This document shows, piece by piece, positions 6,789 to 58,258 of a DNA stretch of 64,000 nt (the stretch's first letter is position 1; each line of letters begins with the position of its first letter). The position numbers were made by a program, and so were the translations under genes. The DNA is from Thiosulfatihalobacter marinus (GTDB lineage: Bacteria; Pseudomonadota; Alphaproteobacteria; Rhodobacterales; Rhodobacteraceae). The DNA lies in the NCBI RefSeq assembly GCF_016019955.1, contig NZ_JAECRZ010000002.1, positions 372,001 to 436,000 on the forward strand, read 5' to 3'. The notes beneath the pieces were generated by a model, which was not told where the DNA came from, did no database searches, and saw only the letters and a program-made list of their open reading frames with translations.

Positions 6789-7152
6789 GATGTGTCAGCT
6801 AGGGGCTTTTCGGGGCGTACGCAACGGGCCGCGCGTGGCACAGTGGATCGAATCAGGGTTAAGGTGTTGATATCATGAAAAATTGGGGGTCGGTATTGCG
6901 TCGGTATCCCGTCGGTATTGCGTCGGTGCAGGCGATGAGAAACGCGTTGTGGTGCGGCGTTAAGGCAGCGTGCGCAAGGGTCTGTTAATCAGCCCGGAGC
7001 CAAGGCCGCAGGCCGCCGGGCATCGCCCGACCGCCCCATGGGCGGGCGATTTTGCGCGGTTCGGGAACACATCAGAGTCGGCGTTGTGTGGTGAGATAAA
7101 GTGCGATGTCCCGACGCTTGATCGCCCACCCTCGGTCGGGCAACGCCCGGTT
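6789..7152. other. 364 bp intergenic region holding repeat E1 and a hairpin
   Basis: This gap contains repeat element E1 (6850-6975). It also holds an inverted repeat ATCGCCCG (7022-7029) / CGGGCGAT (7043-7050) followed by TTTTG on the plus strand, which looks like a terminator but has no plus-strand gene to serve. A 37-codon reading frame (6876 onward) runs through E1 but is not preserved in the other copies. I see nothing else I can support. Confidence 0.6.
6850..6975 (+). repeat. Phased 11-bp element, copy E1
   Basis: From left to right: GAATC (6850-6854), GGGTTAAG (6856-6863), 25 nt, then units on an 11 bp period at 6889, 6900 and 6911 (GTCGGTATTGC, GTCGGTATCCC, GTCGGTATTGC), a final GTCGGTGC at 6922-6929, 29 nt, and GTTAAGG (6959). 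Copies E2 (31598) and E3 (58141) share this layout. E1 differs by 9 extra bases before the right GTTAA. The function is unknown. Confidence 0.85.
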
Positions 7153-7899
7153 TCAGCGCACCGCCTCGATTGGTCCTTCGGCACTGCCGCTGATGAACTG
7201 CGTCAGGTAGGGATCGCCGGAATTGTCCATCTCGCCCACCGGGCCGGTCCACTGGATCACGCCGTCATGCAGCATGGCGACATTGTCGGCGATGGCGCGT
7301 ACCGAGGTCATGTCGTGGGTGATGGTCATGGCGGTGGCGCCCATTTCGACGACGATCTCGCGGATCAGATCGTTGATGACGCCGGACATGATCGGATCAA
7401 GCCCGGTTGTGGGTTCGTCAAAGAAGATGATCCCGGGTTCGGCGGCGATGGCGCGGGCCAGACCGACGCGTTTCTGCATCCCGCCGGAGAGTTCGGACGG
7501 AAAGAGATCGGCAACATCGGGCGTCAGGCCGACGCGGCGCAGTTTCTCGATGGCGATCTCGCGGGCTTCGGATCTGGGACGTTTCAGCGAGCCGCGCAAG
7601 AGGCGAAAGGCGACGTTCTGCCAGACCGGCAGGGAATCAAACAGAGCGCCGCCCTGAAACAACATGCCAAAACGGGCCAGAAAGGCATCGTGGTCGCCCT
7701 GGGTGGCGTTTTGCCCATCCACCATGATGGTGCCGGCGTCGGGCGTGATCAGCCCCAGCACACATTTCAGCGCCACGGATTTGCCGGTGCCCGAGCCGCC
7801 GATGATCACCATGGACGTGCCTTGCGCGATGTCCAGATTGACGCCGCGCAGCACCGCCTTGGGGCCAAAAGATTTATGCACGTCCTGAAAGCTGATCAT
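7153..7899 (-). CDS. mlaF: ABC transporter ATPase, MlaF type
   Basis: The 248-residue ATP-binding subunit of a phospholipid-trafficking (Mla/MCE) ABC transporter. It has Walker A IGGSGTGKS, signature ELSGGMQKRVGLARA, Walker B IIFFDEPTTGLDP and the switch histidine in THDMTS. The MlaF-type sequence (YGLxxMQ-like region replaced by RFGMLFQGGALFDSLPVWQNV) is typical. Its start overlaps the mlaE stop by 4 bp, so the two are translationally coupled. The substrate-binding MCE subunit MlaD and the auxiliary MlaC are not in this operon and would have to come from elsewhere in the genome. Confidence 0.93.
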   Translation of the reverse strand: MISFQDVHKSFGPKAVLRGVNLDIAQGTSMVIIGGSGTGKSVALKCVLGLITPDAGTIMVDGQNATQGDHDAFLARFGMLFQGGALFDSLPVWQNVAFRLLRGSLKRPRSEAREIAIEKLRRVGLTPDVADLFPSELSGGMQKRVGLARAIAAEPGIIFFDEPTTGLDPIMSGVINDLIREIVVEMGATAMTITHDMTSVRAIADNVAMLHDGVIQWTGPVGEMDNSGDPYLTQFISGSAEGPIEAVR

Positions 7900-28233: not shown

Positions 28234-29030
28234 GTCATTTCTCCTTTGCGCACCATTTTTCCGTTCACGAAATGGATGCCGCATTCGTCCTTGTCCTGAC
28301 CGCGCCAGCGGCCCGAACGGGGGTCTTCGCCGTCCTTGACCGGCGAGGTGCAGGGGGCACAGCCGATCGAGGGGTATCCCTTGGCCACCAGCGGGTGGCG
28401 GGGCAGGCGGTTTTCCTCCATATAGGCGCGCACGTCTTCGGGCGCCCAATGGGCCAGCGGGTTGACCTTGATACGCCCGGTAAACTCTTCGACCTCGAAG
28501 AAATCCAGCGCGGCGCGGGTGCCCGACTGAAACCGCTTGCGCCCGGTGATCCAGCCGTCATAGCCGCGCAGCGCCTTTTGCAGGGGGCGGGTCTTGCGCA
28601 GGGCGCAGCAGGCGTCGGTATCGCGCCGGTGCAGGGTGCCATCGGGGTCTTCGGCATTCAGGGTCGCGTCCGAGGCGCGGATGATATGCAGGTTTTGCAG
28701 GTGCAGCCGTTCGGCCAGCTCCTGTTGATAGACCAGCGTTTGCGCAAAAAGCATTTCCGTGTCCACGAACAGCACGGGGATGTTGCGGTCGACCATGGAG
28801 GCGAGGTGCAGCAGCACGACCGACTCCGCGCCAAAGGAGGACACAAGCGCGATCCTGCCAGCCTGCGGGTCACGCAGGCTGGCGTCGATCACGGCGGTGG
28901 CCGAGTGGTGCCGATAGCGCGCGTTGAGCGCATCGACCTTGGCCTGAAGCGGGTCGGCGGGGAGAGTGCCGCCCGCTTGCGCCGCCGTATTGATCGGCGA
29001 GGAGAGGGGGCTTAGTCCGTCATGCGGCAT
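28230..29030 (-). CDS. cysH: Adenylyl-/phosphoadenylyl-sulfate reductase (CysH), [4Fe-4S] type
   Basis: A 266-residue thiol-dependent reductase that reduces activated sulfate to sulfite. The start MPHDGLSPL is at 29030. The PP-loop type VSSFGAESVVLLHLASM binds the nucleotide. The catalytic cysteine sits in KDECGIH near the C-terminus. Two extra cysteine pairs, DACCALRK and IGCAPCTSP, are the CC...CxxC ligands of a [4Fe-4S] cluster, which marks APS rather than PAPS reductases. The start overlaps the cysI stop by 11 bp, so translation is likely coupled. Confidence 0.94.
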   Translation of the reverse strand: MPHDGLSPLSSPINTAAQAGGTLPADPLQAKVDALNARYRHHSATAVIDASLRDPQAGRIALVSSFGAESVVLLHLASMVDRNIPVLFVDTEMLFAQTLVYQQELAERLHLQNLHIIRASDATLNAEDPDGTLHRRDTDACCALRKTRPLQKALRGYDGWITGRKRFQSGTRAALDFFEVEEFTGRIKVNPLAHWAPEDVRAYMEENRLPRHPLVAKGYPSIGCAPCTSPVKDGEDPRSGRWRGQDKDECGIHFVNGKMVRKGEMT

Positions 29031-31033: not shown

Positions 31034-31129
31034 TCCCCCTATCGCGCCAGATGGTGGGACAAATAGAAACAGTCGTTCTGGATTTTGCCCATCCCAGTGC
31101 GATTTTCCCGGATGACAGGAGAATATGGG

Positions 31130-31609
31130 ATGGCATTGCGGATCGACGACATGGACCGGAAAATCCTTGGCGAGCTACAGCGCGACGCGGCGCAGTCGCT
31201 GGACGAAATTGCCCGGCGGGTGGGGTCTTCGAAGACGCCGGTTTGGAACCGGATTCGCAAGCTGCGCGAGGCCGGGGTGATCCGGCGGCAGACGGTTCTG
31301 CTGGATGCGGAGGCGCTGGGGTTCGAGGCTTGTTTCTTTGTGCTGATCAGGACTTCGGAGCATGAGGCGGACTGGCAGGCGGCGTTTCTGAAGGCGTTGC
31401 AGGACCGGCCCGAAGTGCTGGAGGCGCACCGTCTGGCGGGGGATATCGACTATATCCTGAAGGTGCAGGTAAGGAATGCACGTGCCTATGACATCTTTTA
31501 CCAGGCGCTGATTTCAGAGGTGAAGGTGCACAACGTGACCGCGCTTTTGTCGATGGAAGAGATCAAATCGACCACGATGTTGCCGCTTGGGAGCGGCGAC
31601 TCGGGTTAA
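31130..31609 (+). CDS. Lrp/AsnC-family transcriptional regulator
   Basis: A 159-residue Lrp-type regulator. The start MALRIDDMDRK (31130) has AGGAG 8 nt upstream. The N-terminal helix-turn-helix is SLDEIARRVGSSKTPVWNRIRKL, followed by the RAM ligand-binding domain (LGFEACFFVLIRTSEH...VLEAHRLAGDIDYILKVQV). It is transcribed divergently from the cys operon with 141 bp between starts, so control of sulfur assimilation is a reasonable inference. Its stop codon TAA lies inside the left end of repeat element E2. Confidence 0.93.
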   Translation: MALRIDDMDRKILGELQRDAAQSLDEIARRVGSSKTPVWNRIRKLREAGVIRRQTVLLDAEALGFEACFFVLIRTSEHEADWQAAFLKALQDRPEVLEAHRLAGDIDYILKVQVRNARAYDIFYQALISEVKVHNVTALLSMEEIKSTTMLPLGSGDSG

Positions 31610-31712
31610 CGCGCTGAAACGGCGCGAAAAACGGGTTCGGCATTGCGTCGGTATCACGTCGGTATCGCGGCGGTGCGCACCGGCCCGGAAGGTGGGGTTA
31701 ACGCGGCGCGCG
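31598..31712 (+). repeat. Phased 11-bp element, copy E2
   Basis: GACTC (31598-31602), GGGTTAAC (31603-31610), 25 nt, then units on an 11 bp period at 31636, 31647 and 31658 (TTCGGCATTGC, GTCGGTATCAC, GTCGGTATCGC), GGCGGTGC (31669-31676), 20 nt, and GTTAAC (31697-31702). It lies between the Lrp and P450 genes, which converge. The Lrp stop codon is part of the left GGGTTAAC. Confidence 0.85.
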
Positions 31713-31749
31713 GTCTAGCAACTGTATCTTCAGATTGGGGGATTGGTTG

Positions 31750-32955
31750 CTAGATTTGTACCATCAGCCGTTCCAGCCCGTGAAAGTGGTAGCTGTTGGC
31801 ATAGCGCGGGGCCGCGGCAAGGCGCAGGTCCGGGCAGCGGTTGAACAGGATTGGCAATGCCAGCTTCATCTCCAGCCGCGCCAGAGGGGCGCCGACACAG
31901 AAATGCAGCCCGCCGCCAAAGCTGGAATTGGTCACGATGGGGCGGGTGGGGCGAAACTGGCCGGGGTCTTCCCACAGGCCCGGATCGCGATTGGCCGCCG
32001 CCAGCAGCAACGCGACCCGGTCGCCGCGCCGGAAGACGTGGCGCCCGACCTCGATCTCTTCATAGGCATAGCGGGTGAACATGTGCAGCGGCGGATCATG
32101 GCGCAGGATTTCCTCGACCGTGCGGTCGATCCCGTCAGGGGCGAGCCAGTCCGGGTCCGGCCCGTGTCCCGGCCCGTGTCCTGGCCTGTGGTCAAGCAGG
32201 TGTTTCACGCCGTTGCCCATGGCATGGACCGTGGCTTCGTGTCCGGCATTCATCAGCAGGATGCAGGTGGTGATCAGTTCCGCCGTGCTGAGCTTTTCGC
32301 CCTCTTCCTCGGCGGCGATCAGGCGCGAGATCAGATCGTCGGAGGGGGTTTTGCGGCGGCTGTCGATATAGGTTGTCAGGAAGGCGGTGAACTGGGTCGC
32401 GGCGCGGGCGGCGGCGTCTTCATGCGCGCGGGTGCGGCTGGCCATGTACATGGAGACCATGGCGTGCGACCACGCCAGGAATTGCGGCGCCATGGTGTCG
32501 GGCACGCCCAGCAGGCGGGCGATGGTGATGACGGGCACTTGCGTGCAATAAGCCGACAGCAGGTCAAAGGGCGTGTCGGGGAACCGGTCTATCAGGGAAT
32601 GGCAGAGCGTTTCGATTCCGGGTTGCAGATCGGCAATGGCGCGGGTGGTGAAGGCGCGCAGCACCAGAGACCGCAGGCGGGTGTGGCGGGGCGGTTCCAG
32701 TTCCAGCATGGAGTGGGCCTCGACCGCGTAGAACGGTTTCAGGTGGCCGGGAATGGCGGCGGCCAGTTCCGGGGGCACTTCGCGCCCGAAGCGGCGATCC
32801 TTGAGGATCATGCTGACCGTGGCATGTGACAGGGCGGCGGGCATGGCGTAATCGTTCCAATGCACCATCGGGCCATGGGCGCGGGCGGTTTCGTAGAACG
32901 GGTAGGGATCTTGTACGAAGCCCGGGTCTGTCGGGGACTGGAAAAGTGTTTTCAT
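31750..32955 (-). CDS. Cytochrome P450
   Basis: A 401-residue soluble bacterial P450. The start MKTLFQSP (32955) was chosen over a longer arginine/proline-rich reading. The haem cysteine is in SSFGGGLHFCVGAPLARLE. The K-helix ExxR is EEILRHD. The I-helix oxygen-activation motif is NAGHEATVHAM, with Glu in place of the usual Asp. A low-complexity loop (PGHGPGHGPDPD) before the K-helix comes from a 12-bp tandem repeat. No ferredoxin partner lies beside it. The substrate is unknown. Confidence 0.93.
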   Translation of the reverse strand: MKTLFQSPTDPGFVQDPYPFYETARAHGPMVHWNDYAMPAALSHATVSMILKDRRFGREVPPELAAAIPGHLKPFYAVEAHSMLELEPPRHTRLRSLVLRAFTTRAIADLQPGIETLCHSLIDRFPDTPFDLLSAYCTQVPVITIARLLGVPDTMAPQFLAWSHAMVSMYMASRTRAHEDAAARAATQFTAFLTTYIDSRRKTPSDDLISRLIAAEEEGEKLSTAELITTCILLMNAGHEATVHAMGNGVKHLLDHRPGHGPGHGPDPDWLAPDGIDRTVEEILRHDPPLHMFTRYAYEEIEVGRHVFRRGDRVALLLAAANRDPGLWEDPGQFRPTRPIVTNSSFGGGLHFCVGAPLARLEMKLALPILFNRCPDLRLAAAPRYANSYHFHGLERLMVQI

Positions 32956-50154: not shown

Positions 50155-50229
50155 GGGTGATTAGCTCAGTGGTAGAGCGCTTCGTTCACATCGAAGATGT
50201 CAGGAGTTCAAATCTCTTATCACCCACCA
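50155..50229 (+). tRNA. tRNA-Val (CAC anticodon)
   Basis: Acceptor GGGTGAT pairs with ATCACCC, with D stem GCTC/GAGC. The anticodon loop TTCACAT lies between CTTCG and CGAAG, so the anticodon is CAC. T stem AGGAG/CTCTT surrounds TTCAAAT. CCA is encoded (50227-50229). Confidence 0.95.
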
Positions 50230-50240
50230 TGTTTCGCGGC

Positions 50241-50279
50241 GGGCGCTCCCTGATAAAGGTTGAGCGCCCGTTTGCTTTT
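50241..50279 (+). terminator. Terminator after tRNA-Val
   Basis: An 8-bp stem GGGCGCTC/GAGCGCCC with loop CCTGATAAAGGTT is followed by a T-rich GTTTGCTTTTC. Confidence 0.7.
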
Positions 50280-50287
50280 CGGGTGAC

Positions 50288-50752
50288 TCACAGCCGCATC
50301 AGATAGGATTGGTGCCCATCCGCGACCAGCACGCCGTCCTGGTTGAAAATGCGGATGGCCAGCGTCATTGCGCCGGTTGTCCTGCGTGGCTCCAGCGCGG
50401 TGATTTCGAATTCGGGGTAAAGCGTGTCGCCGCACAGGACAGGCGCCAGAAACCGCGAGGATTGGGACAGAAACCCGATCAGCGCCTCGCCCATTTCATG
50501 CGCCAGCGGGCTGGCGCCGATAGCCGCCTGGATCAGGGTCTGATAGCCGTGGGCCAGCAGGTTGGCATGGCCTTGCCGGGCGCAATAGGGGCGGTCGTAA
50601 TGGATCGGATGATTGTCGCCGCTGGCGGCCTGAAAGGCGGCGAAAACGCCCTCGGTCATGGTGCGCGAGGGCGCGCGGAAGACCTCTCCGATGCGAAAGT
50701 CGGCAAAGGCGCGGCGCGGGTGGGTGCTGTGCTGGGTCGGGTCAAATGTCAT
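50288..50752 (-). CDS. MaoC-like dehydratase (hot-dog fold)
   Basis: A 154-residue protein starting MTFDPTQHST (50752). The hydratase loop FQAASGDNHPIHYD (the Asp/His of MaoC/(R)-enoyl-CoA hydratases) and YQTLIQAAIG...FLAPVLCGDTLYPEFE are characteristic. It may hydrate an enoyl-CoA or bind a related acyl ligand. No fatty-acid or PHB genes adjoin, so the substrate is unknown. It converges with the tRNA-Val gene. Confidence 0.88.
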   Translation of the reverse strand: MTFDPTQHSTHPRRAFADFRIGEVFRAPSRTMTEGVFAAFQAASGDNHPIHYDRPYCARQGHANLLAHGYQTLIQAAIGASPLAHEMGEALIGFLSQSSRFLAPVLCGDTLYPEFEITALEPRRTTGAMTLAIRIFNQDGVLVADGHQSYLMRL

Positions 50753-50854
50753 GGTGCCATGAGGGCGCGCGCAACGCAGTCTGTCAATGGTCACGGGAGA
50801 AGCCCGGGACATGGCGGGCCCCGCGCCCGCAGGGCCGTCAGGGGCATGGGCGCG

Positions 50855-51856
50855 TCAGCCCTGCCCGGCGGAAAAGCGATGCGGCGTGATGCCAAAGGCC
50901 TCGCGGAAACGTTTGGAGAAATTGCCCGCGCTTTCATAGCCGCAGGCGATGGCCACATCCACGACGGGCATGTCGGTTTCGGCCAGCAGGATGCGGGCCT
51001 TGTGCAGGCGCAATTCTTGCAGGTAGCGGCGCGGGGTTGTGTCAAGATGGGTGCGGAACAGCCGTTCCATCTGGCGACGCGACAGGCCCAATTCGCTGCA
51101 CAGCGCGCCGAGGTTGATTTCGTCGTCCAGATGCGCCTCGAAATGTGCAATCAGGCGCAGCAGTTTCGGGTTGCGGGTGCCCAGGCTGGCCGAGGTCGAG
51201 CTTTGCTGGCGGTCGGTTTCCGAGCGTTGCACGGAATGCAGGCACATGTTGAGCACGGCGCGGGCCAGATCGCCGCCATGCCGGTCGTAGATCAGCCGGA
51301 TGAACAGGTCGGTCGCCGCCGCGCCGCCGCCGCAGGTCAGAATGCGCTCGTCAATGGCGTATAGCTGTTCGACCGGGTCAAGATCGGGAAAGTGTTCGCG
51401 AAACGGGGGGATGTTTTCCCAATGCAGGGTGAAGGTGCGCCCGGACAGGATCCCGGCGCGCGCCAACGTGTAGGCGCCGGTACACAGCCCCCCCACGGTG
51501 CGCCCGGTGCGCCATTGCCGGCGCAGCCAGCCAGCCACGGCGGCGGGGGTGTTGCGTTCGGGTTCGACGCCCGAGCAGACGAAGATCGCGGCGGTTTGCG
51601 GGGTGTCGGCCAGTGCGGAATCGATCCCGATCTCGATCCCGTTGGAACAGCGCATATTGGCCCCGGTTTCGGACATTGTGGTCCAGGAATAAAGGCTTTG
51701 CCCCGTCAGCTGGTTGGCAATGCGCAGCGGCTCGATGGCCGAGGTAAAGGCCAGCATCGACAGGTTGGGCAGCAACACGAAGACAATCGGATCCGGCGCG
51801 GCCACCGGGGGCAAAGGGACATGGGCGACGCCTTTGGGGACGATGGGATCTGGCAT
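50855..51856 (-). CDS. GlxA-family AraC-type transcriptional regulator (GbdR/CdhR-like)
   Basis: A 333-residue regulator; start MPDPIVPKGV (51856). An N-terminal DJ-1/PfpI-like domain (FVLLPNLSMLAFTSAIEPLRIANQ, GGLCTGAYTLARAG) is followed by a C-terminal AraC helix-turn-helix pair (LGALCSELGLSRRQMERLFRTHL, VVDVAIACGYESAGNFSKRFREAFG). The pattern SMLAFTSAIEPLRIANQL resembles GbdR and CdhR, which control glycine betaine and carnitine use. No such genes are adjacent, so its regulon lies elsewhere. Confidence 0.9.
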   Translation of the reverse strand: MPDPIVPKGVAHVPLPPVAAPDPIVFVLLPNLSMLAFTSAIEPLRIANQLTGQSLYSWTTMSETGANMRCSNGIEIGIDSALADTPQTAAIFVCSGVEPERNTPAAVAGWLRRQWRTGRTVGGLCTGAYTLARAGILSGRTFTLHWENIPPFREHFPDLDPVEQLYAIDERILTCGGGAAATDLFIRLIYDRHGGDLARAVLNMCLHSVQRSETDRQQSSTSASLGTRNPKLLRLIAHFEAHLDDEINLGALCSELGLSRRQMERLFRTHLDTTPRRYLQELRLHKARILLAETDMPVVDVAIACGYESAGNFSKRFREAFGITPHRFSAGQG

Positions 51857-51936
51857 GGCGGCCTTGCACAATTGGGGCGGAACTAGCGTATAGAATAGCG
51901 CAAGCTGCGGTGGCTGCAATGGAGACAAAAAAGCGG

Positions 51937-51965
51937 TTGCACGGCGCATCTTCTGGCGCTATTTC
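51937..51965 (+). promoter_or_regulatory. Candidate promoter of tRNA-Val (TAC)
   Basis: TTGCAC (51937-51942), a 17 bp spacer and TATTTC (51960-51965), with the tRNA starting at 51976. Confidence 0.45.
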
Positions 51966-51975
51966 CACCGTCACC

Positions 51976-52051
<76 letters not shown>

Positions 52052-52268
52052 TTCCCCCATCGATCCCCGTGACAGGATACCAACCGGAACGGTCCGGGCT
52101 TGGGGTTTGCCGTGATCGATGCGCGGGCGCGCGGTGGTGGGGCCTGACGAGATGGTACGGGCGGCGGCAGATACGTGGGAAATCGCTGCGTCCCGAAGCC
52201 GGGCGCCCGGGGCGGGCAGGCGTTGGAAAAAGACGGGAAAAATCTTCGACATGGGCGGTCATATACGC

Positions 52269-52297
52269 TTGACGCGCCAGAGTGGGGCGCATAAACC
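52269..52297 (+). promoter_or_regulatory. Candidate promoter of the tRNA-Asp pair
   Basis: TTGACG (52269-52274), a 17 bp spacer and TAAACC (52292-52297) lie 41 bp before the first tRNA-Asp. Confidence 0.55.
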
Positions 52298-52338
52298 ACG
52301 GCTCACGCTGACGGGCACCGCCCGAAAGCGGGCAGTGA

Positions 52339-52415
52339 GCGGTTGTAGCTCAGTTGGTTAGAGTACCGGCCTGTCACGCCGGGGGTCGCGGGTTCGAGCC
52401 CCGTCAACCGCGCCA
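52339..52415 (+). tRNA. tRNA-Asp (GTC anticodon), copy 1
   Basis: Acceptor GCGGTTG pairs with CAACCGC. The loop CTGTCAC between CCGGC and GCCGG gives anticodon GTC. T stem GCGGG/CCCGT. The discriminator G and CCA are encoded. It is identical to copy 2 over all 77 nt. Confidence 0.97.
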
Positions 52416-52476
52416 CCGCTGCCAGCCCCGATCCGGGGGTCCGCAAGGAAACCGGATCACGCCGAAAGGCCCATGC

Positions 52477-52553
52477 GCGGTTGTAGCTCAGTTGGTTAGA
52501 GTACCGGCCTGTCACGCCGGGGGTCGCGGGTTCGAGCCCCGTCAACCGCGCCA
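52477..52553 (+). tRNA. tRNA-Asp (GTC anticodon), copy 2
   Basis: It is identical over 77 nt to the copy at 52339, with 61 bp between the two. The 61 bp spacer is not repeated, so the pair is a conserved duplication and the flanks have diverged. Confidence 0.97.
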
Positions 52554-58140: not shown

Positions 58141-58258
58141 GAATCAGGGTTAACAACCTGAAAAACATTGGTTTTCGCAATCGGCAAACTGTCGGCGCCA
58201 CGTCGGTATCGCGTCGGTGCCCGCGGGCAGAAAACGCGCCGTTAACCCGGCGCGCGCC
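58141..58258 (+). repeat. Phased 11-bp element, copy E3
   Basis: GAATC (58141-58145), GGGTTAAC (58147-58154), 25 nt, then units on an 11 bp period at 58180, 58191 and 58202 (ATCGGCAAACT, GTCGGCGCCAC, GTCGGTATCGC), GTCGGTGC (58213-58220), 20 nt, and GTTAAC (58241-58246). It lies between the convergent ispG and the response regulator gene. The spacings equal those of E2. Confidence 0.85.

Follow-up and report, generated by a model that had tools for sequence, protein, structure and literature searches.

Thiosulfatihalobacter marinus harbours a family of about 80 near-evenly spaced sites that are oriented with replication, and kin of these sites are present in some marine bacteria. The core of the element consists of two to five units GTCGGTATYRC, repeated with an 11-bp period and followed by a closing GTCGGTGC, and helically phased A/T tracts lie 5′ of this core. 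We give about an even chance to the reading that the element is a polar, composite candidate site for a cooperatively bound protein, on which the DNA would be wrapped in the service of chromosome organisation. Three copies (E1, E2 and E3) are located in the window, which here means the whole stretch of 64,000 nucleotides that was analysed. The sequence-only reading of this stretch knew of no description of the element, and none was found in the open-licence full-text literature, among the best-ranked part of several result sets.

Composite structure of the element

A layout common to three copies had been described from the letters of the window, and our direct reading agrees with it base for base in E1, E2 and E3. 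The features are the following, in window coordinates.

6850..6854, + strand: E1 GANTC box GAATC, at the position preferred in the family
6858..6863, + strand: E1 left TTAA box GTTAAG, by direct reading; 25 nt precede the first unit
6889..6929, + strand: E1 array, three 11-bp units (6889, 6900, 6911) and closing GTCGGTGC (6922-6929)
6959..6964, + strand: E1 right TTAA box GTTAAG, 29 nt past the array
31598..31602, + strand: E2 GANTC box GACTC, within the last codons of an AsnC/Lrp-type gene
31605..31610, + strand: E2 left GTTAAC, whose TAA is the stop codon of the AsnC/Lrp-type gene 31112-31609
31611..31635, + strand: E2 25-nt spacer with the A/T tracts GAAA and GAAAAA
31636..31676, + strand: E2 array TTCGGCATTGC, GTCGGTATCAC, GTCGGTATCGC (units 31636, 31647, 31658) and closing GGCGGTGC (31669-31676)
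31697..31702, + strand: E2 right GTTAAC, 20 nt past the array
58141..58145, + strand: E3 GANTC box GAATC
58149..58154, + strand: E3 left GTTAAC, 25 nt before the first unit
58180..58220, + strand: E3 array ATCGGCAAACT, GTCGGCGCCAC, GTCGGTATCGC (units 58180, degenerate, 58191 and 58202) and closing GTCGGTGC (58213-58220)
58241..58246, + strand: E3 right GTTAAC, 20 nt past the array

All three copies in the window start with a GANTC site, and the starts first assigned to them (6850, 31598 and 58141) are the first bases of these sites. That first description captured the units, the TTAA boxes and the spacings, and overlooked the GANTC box and the strand bias. With up to three mismatches, the 17-mer GTCGGTATYRCGTCGGT has 11 matches in the window, eight of them within E1-E3, vs 0.62 in shuffles, and none of 100 shuffles reached 11. 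A near-match to two units at 28614-28630, inside a PAPS-reductase-type gene, is weak in the model (E 0.04) and is probably due to chance. The window also possesses four tRNA genes, clustered on the + strand at 50155-52550. Judged by eye, several copies in other loci start at or shortly past a stop codon, as E2 does.

Among 241 copies from several genera, the closing unit is preceded by three units in 138, four in 77, two in 20 and five in 6. In 154 copies aligned at the closing unit, AT content peaks near -98, -88, -82, -72, -62, -51 and -41. A step of 14 separates these peaks from the next ones, which fall on the TAT of each unit, and weak peaks follow near +19, +30 and +40. The periodicity of the 5′ arm in the 241 copies has a power of 24.0, vs a maximum of 2.25 in the row-shifted null (0/300), and its best period lies between 9.7 and 11.3 depending on the copy set. 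Phasing of the 3′ arm is significant in the source-genome, G283 and g1 sets and in the pooled copies, and not significant in 104 copies from named records (P 0.30). In a control window far upstream, 195-125 bp ahead of the array, weak periodicity is present in the pooled copies (1.25 vs a null maximum of 0.61), and also in the named and G283 sets; the arm may extend further, or the null may be slightly too strict. Within the upstream tracts A and T are interchangeable, and therefore bendability, and not one sequence, seems to be conserved. The phased A/T pattern is the one expected of protein-wrapped DNA, and the E. coli gyrase motif has it as well (PMC6379681).

The spacings between the array and the TTAA boxes, originally given as 25 nt and 20 nt, are strongly preferred in steps of about 11 bp, and they are not invariant. 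In 215 copies, the end of a TTAA box lies 26 or 27 nt ahead of the first unit 50 times, 15 nt ahead of it 11 times and 36 nt ahead of it 9 times. On the other side, a box starts 21 nt after GTCGGTGC 16 times, 10 nt after it 12 times and 25 nt after it 17 times (14 of these from G283), the others being scattered. As the main steps are of about 11 bp, most boxes share a helical face with the units. A palindrome GTGCG..CGCAC, which the eye picks out at the array end of some lineages, proved weak over all copies and was discarded as a feature.

The GANTC box is mostly found 35 ± 1 nt before the array and is enriched in four of five copy sets. Sites were counted 60-28 nt upstream of the array and compared with the mean of five control windows. 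In the source genome 29 out of 48 copies have such a site (control 1.0), as do 28 out of 95 in named records, among the matches listed (control 2.2), 5 out of 18 in the other g1 genomes (control 0.6) and 7 out of 17 in G170/G176 (control 0.2). No enrichment was found in G283 (3/37 vs 2.0), so the box is not universal. The middle base varies in the source-genome copies (A in 20, T in 6, C in 4), and seven other same-letter five-base palindromes rise far less, the largest in the source set being CTNAG with 5 vs 1.2. Therefore, the recognised object looks like GANTC, which is the methylation site of CcrM (PMC8116508). Across the window (1-64000) GANTC is depleted about three-fold (83 vs 261 in shuffles), as would be expected for a CcrM-methylated genome. 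In Rhodobacterales, hemimethylation has been argued to play possibly little role in gene expression (PMC8116508), and the elements could be another use of CcrM hemimethylation.

Occurrence and arrangement on chromosomes

The element had been regarded as three-copy, which is an undercount. A model derived from sequence only (63 positions, built from 50 copies) gave 80 matches at E<=0.1 in the source genome, and about 78 copies after the two weakest (E 0.01 and 0.04) were dropped. With up to two mismatches, the 17-mer has 179 matches genome-wide, vs 6 for the reversed control. A profile scan, suggested when the element was first noticed, revealed many copies in many genomes, in which the preferred spacings and the 11-bp period of the units hold, the period also with a probe of three TCGGT at 11-bp steps.

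Related genomes possess tens to hundreds of copies each, and occurrence is patchy. Allowing one mismatch, at least one match to the 17-mer was present in 73 out of 390 genomes of the order, the source genome included, and none in 317. At least ten matches were found in 22 of the 390, including all nine of the source genus in that draw; the rest of the 22 are scattered over other genera, and several of them have siblings with zero copies. An exact 28-mer detected at least 113 stretches in named records, titled Rhodobacterales or unassigned Alphaproteobacteria. The TCGGT probe is present in 30 of the 390 genomes (reversed control in 6), and scores zero in the copy-bearing genomes G041, G071 and G226. 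When 200 kb of copy-free G395 were scanned for an 11-bp period irrespective of sequence, one hit reached 17/22 and none 18/22, and a copy-bearing 160-kb stretch of G001 gave no hit. Given these blind spots, diverged versions may be present in copy-free genomes.

In a second draw of the source genus, 11 out of 13 genomes match: ten carry 46-99 copies, G392 carries one, and G395 and G397 carry none. These last three cluster with a support of 71 (two of them with 100) in an unrooted tree built from one gene of nine genomes, which is consistent with a single gain or loss. The lone copy of G392 (L300 1501-1529), in a species otherwise copy-free, possesses TTAA and GAATC boxes, and transfer of DNA is possible; a search of its locus against the source-genome loci gave no hit. 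The g23 genomes G031, G239, G347, G221 and G235 (L373-L392) have just 3-10 matches to the 17-mer each. Some of their arrays are longer and more varied, with a common 3′ flank like GTCGGTGCGNGGCGCGCG, and several positions are common to more than one species.

With the array itself left out, the DNA flanking the copies has an excess of G on the element strand at 25 out of 26 source-genome loci, at 20 out of 21 in G283 and, among the matches listed, at 101 out of 113 named loci. A second, overlapping set from the source genome has positive flanking GC skew in 29 out of 30 copies. The complete Pseudohalocynthiibacter chromosome has 26 copies, and 20 of the 22 examined agree with GC skew. In G001, 51 of the 94 matches lie on contig C1 (2.38 Mb), on which orientation was analysed: 28 copies are on the + strand and 3 on the - strand left of 1.47 Mb, vs 3 and 17 right of it. 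GC skew on C1 flips sign at about 1.475-1.49 Mb, and position 1,496,664 holds what we take to be a dif-like site, matching the E. coli dif sequence at 20 of 28 positions. The copies on C1 point to the predicted terminus along the leading strand.

Strands alternate in G283 and on source contig C33, and the local skew alternates alongside. Mixed strands are found along the chromosomes of G283, which has a run of N and whose order may partly reflect scaffolding, and of Pseudohalocynthiibacter; wrong orientation relative to present replication seems to be tolerated in both. In regular regions GC skew around the copies is flat, and we therefore read the strand alternation as inversions and islands. 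The idea that the element itself creates a local GC-skew peak, suggested by G283 and by a decay over 20-40 kb in mosaic regions, was rejected, as the peak is absent in regular regions. We prefer the view that skew and element have a history in common in segments that are rearranged or rich in islands.

Copies also keep away from close neighbours. On source contigs with at least five copies the coefficient of variation (CV) is 0.45 vs 0.86 simulated, with 0 of 20,000 simulations as low. The 51 copies on G001 C1 have a mean spacing of 47 kb and a CV of 0.64 vs 0.97 (P 0.0007), with one gap below 10 kb vs 9.4 expected. In G283 (75 assembled positions) overdispersion by CV is not significant (P 0.12), and two gaps are below 10 kb vs 14.1 expected. 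No copy is located at 1.409-1.538 Mb of G001 C1, the 129 kb that hold the dif-like site; a larger copy-free gap (168 kb) is found elsewhere, and the absence is therefore not a depletion beyond chance.

Gene context was assessed with gene calls from a simple hexamer caller. In the pooled source-genome, named and G283 loci, 175 copies lie between genes and 13 inside a gene call, 13 more at locus edges being uncounted. Divergent gaps are depleted (17/175 vs 306/992 copy-free gaps, p 7e-10) and convergent gaps are enriched (50/175 vs 139/992, p 6e-6). The other 108 copies are in tandem gaps, where 48 point along the genes and 60 opposite. Copies thus avoid promoters and are indifferent to the direction of transcription. 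Among recurrent neighbours, considered as a possible cognate gene, no family stood out beyond what conserved synteny gives.

Competing explanations and positional conservation

The main rival, and the strongest one, is that the elements are strong DNA gyrase sites, an explanation that we regard as unlikely. Phased A/T would guide wrapping on the GyrA C-terminal domain, positive supercoils would be discharged at 3′ ends of genes, and the function would resemble that of E. coli BIME-2 or the Mu strong gyrase site (SGS). The E. coli gyrase motif is described as spanning about 130 bp, in which G/C arms with a periodic pattern surround a 36-bp centre and AT faces the protein, and BIME-2 as intergenic and attracting gyrase (PMC6379681). 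In a comparison of species, each of the three gyrases tested is reported to have a GC periodicity of 10-11 bp (PMC12324340). In agreement with this, the periodicity and length of the element are similar to those of the E. coli motif, with phased A/T over about 130 bp; its copies favour convergent 3′ ends and, like BIME-2, are intergenic and numerous. Both are suited to wrapping, and a topological role is likely for both. However, the known sites consist of palindromic REPs or of a degenerate motif, whereas the element has sharply defined 11-bp direct units, is polar with replication, carries GANTC and TTAA boxes, and differs in presence between members of one genus. Gyrase is universal, whereas copies are missing from most of the related genomes that were surveyed, and strand polarity is not predicted by a gyrase site. 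A comparison of GyrA in 9 copy-rich vs 6 copy-poor genomes gave no discriminating residue, although this is a weak test, in which random splits average 0.1.

A small mobile repeat was among the roles first proposed. The copies would be its remains, inserted with replication-coupled orientation and spaced by target immunity, and oriented insertion and target immunity are both known from some transposons. We consider this improbable, although three observations speak for it: the patchy distribution, one site at which two species differ by a gain or a loss, and some copies in G283 that are about 80% similar to each other over 160-219 bp. Similarity between copies of one genome is mostly short, and the long similarity in G283 is partly due to a second repeat nearby; local duplication has, judging from these alignments, contributed to some copies. 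This second dispersed repeat (L147, L152, L155, L159 and others in G283) ends near GGATATTTTTGGGCC.ATAAT, about +80 to +124 after the array, is terminator-like by eye, and is often found beside the element.

The positions of copies appear to be vertically inherited in part, which argues against mobility. A 20-kb stretch of the source genome with two copies (contig C44) was compared with eight relatives. The copy at C44:292347 has a counterpart of like orientation, flanked by the same two convergent genes, in G390, G109, G394 and G396, in G394 in degenerate form; these four are all the positive relatives with contiguous flanks, and the site was viewed in them and in G397. By eye, little is recognisable in the spacer besides the units and the A/T tracts, and in copy-free G397 the two flanking genes nearly touch. 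The copy at C44:283030 is not kept in place: of seven relatives viewed beside the same gene, one (G396) has an array, which points the other way relative to that gene, and rearrangement has affected the surroundings. Furthermore, G390 carries an extra copy where the source genome and G395 have none. At the two places where presence and absence were seen, which are those examined, no clean boundary or target duplication could be read.

In ordered comparisons of orthologs from different genera, a copy at the same gene end was present in 26 of 58 cases if the partner has one, and in 32 of 248 if not (p 2.7e-7). The 26/58 correspond to 13 unordered gene pairs and 10 locus pairs, and 10 of the 13 have the same relative orientation; the comparisons are not independent, and the Roseovarius-G176 and Boseongicola-G283 pairs may be within one genus.

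Other traits expected of a mobile repeat were searched for. A sample of 120 copies has no consistent hairpin (mean fold z -0.35, with 9% below -2), and a Y1 (RAYT) transposase over the cut-off is scarce in both copy-rich (2/17) and copy-poor (2/13) genomes, with no link to the element. An identity as REP/RAYT was rejected on both grounds. CGTC-tagged REP families have stems of 8-9 bp (PMC3733652). Like the CGTC- and GTAG-tagged REPs, the element is a small dispersed repeat, uneven in alphaproteobacteria, and its units contain CGTC; unlike these palindromic REPs, it has no consistent hairpin. A BLAST search of 72,556 plasmid and 50,697 phage records gave no match, with a query that under the same settings recovers 49 of 60 source-genome, 103 of 113 named and 23 of 30 G283 loci, and a plasmid or phage origin was set aside. 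Two IMG/VR contigs hold one copy each. In one of them (L204) the array at 7478-7518 follows a gene end resembling, by eye, that before source locus L008, and this contig is probably host DNA rather than viral.

A transcriptional element, that is an OmpR/PhoB- or CtrA-type operator, a small-RNA promoter or a terminator, has in our view a slim chance. The pho box is a tandem operator of 11-bp direct repeats, and the CtrA motif resembles TTAA. Direct repeats that recur every 11 bp on a single face of the DNA, with a variable number of units, are an operator form of the OmpR/PhoB family, and TTAA and GANTC recall CtrA and CcrM/GcrA sites. The PhoP operator has 7-bp motifs with a 4-bp spacer (PMC4832192). 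However, the element is chromosome-wide and polar, avoids divergent promoter regions and is not tied to gene direction (48 vs 60). No sigma-70-type promoter was found at 31300-32000 around E2, and a single terminator-like site in this interval (31906-31924, minus strand; 0.5 expected by chance) lies outside E2. The early statement that no terminator explains the element is thus borne out for E2, the sole copy scanned. Rfam covariance models at gathering thresholds matched the four tRNAs alone in the window and nothing at the elements, and the fold z of E1-E3 on both strands ranges from -0.77 to 1.16. After folding, Rfam and the promoter and terminator scan around E2 had given nothing, an RNA element or terminator was rejected.

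Sites of the KOPS type, steering the septal translocase FtsK to dif, are very improbable, although the copies point at the dif-like site on both arms of G001 C1 and share their origin-to-terminus orientation with KOPS and with architecture-imparting strand-biased motifs; KOPS are densest near dif, whereas the element is absent from the 129 kb holding the dif-like site (and from a larger gap elsewhere), is absent from sibling species, and occurs about once per 50 kb, with about 80 copies per genome. KOPS are 8-bp oriented motifs (PMC2680272), and the element is a composite of about 100 bp with an array of about 40 bp.

Candidate role in chromosome organisation

The reading of the element as a protein-wrapped site for chromosome organisation draws on three lines of evidence. 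Contacts once per turn and bendable upstream DNA indicate a protein; the avoidance of promoters and the indifference to gene direction indicate that the setting is not transcription; and polarity and spacing indicate a chromosome-scale, replication-linked role. A sequence-specific protein would bind head-to-tail along one face of the units, in the manner of winged-helix proteins of the OmpR/PhoB family, which are known to bind direct repeats with 11-bp steps, and would wrap or bend 100-140 bp, aided by the phased A/T tracts. Such a site may mark or partition the chromosome at intervals of roughly 50 kb, in the service of an organisation linked to replication, which could be the control of topological domains, condensin or segregation. 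Where the GANTC box is present, its hemimethylation at fork passage could time binding.

Chromosome organisation through a nucleoid protein site was already among the first proposals. This proposal fits the orientation, the spacing, the partly conserved positions and the phased A/T arms; neither its protein nor a phyletic partner was found. As sibling species of one genus are copy-free, the function would be dispensable or replaceable. The matS sites bound by MatP are palindromic, confined to Ter and chromosome-organising. The element resembles matS in having tens of sites, tens of kb apart, and in its putative chromosome-organising role, and differs from it in being a direct repeat, polar and chromosome-wide. 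A more specific version, which we advance only tentatively and regard as unlikely, is a chromosome-wide ruler, in which a dedicated protein would be timed by CcrM hemimethylation as the fork passes and the polar, near-evenly spaced wrapping sites would be directional boundaries of replication-linked folding. Such a ruler would be, in its logic, a bacterial counterpart of the oriented CTCF sites for loop extrusion.

Only a few sequence families of bacteria are known to follow replication in their orientation or to be spaced along the chromosome, such as KOPS, Chi and matS, and each of these opened a mechanism. The element is easily testable, with tens of copies or none among siblings of one genus, a sharp unit and some conserved positions. 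The binding protein, once found, could connect methylation in the cell cycle with the wrapping of DNA and the organisation of the chromosome, in a family of major importance among marine bacteria.
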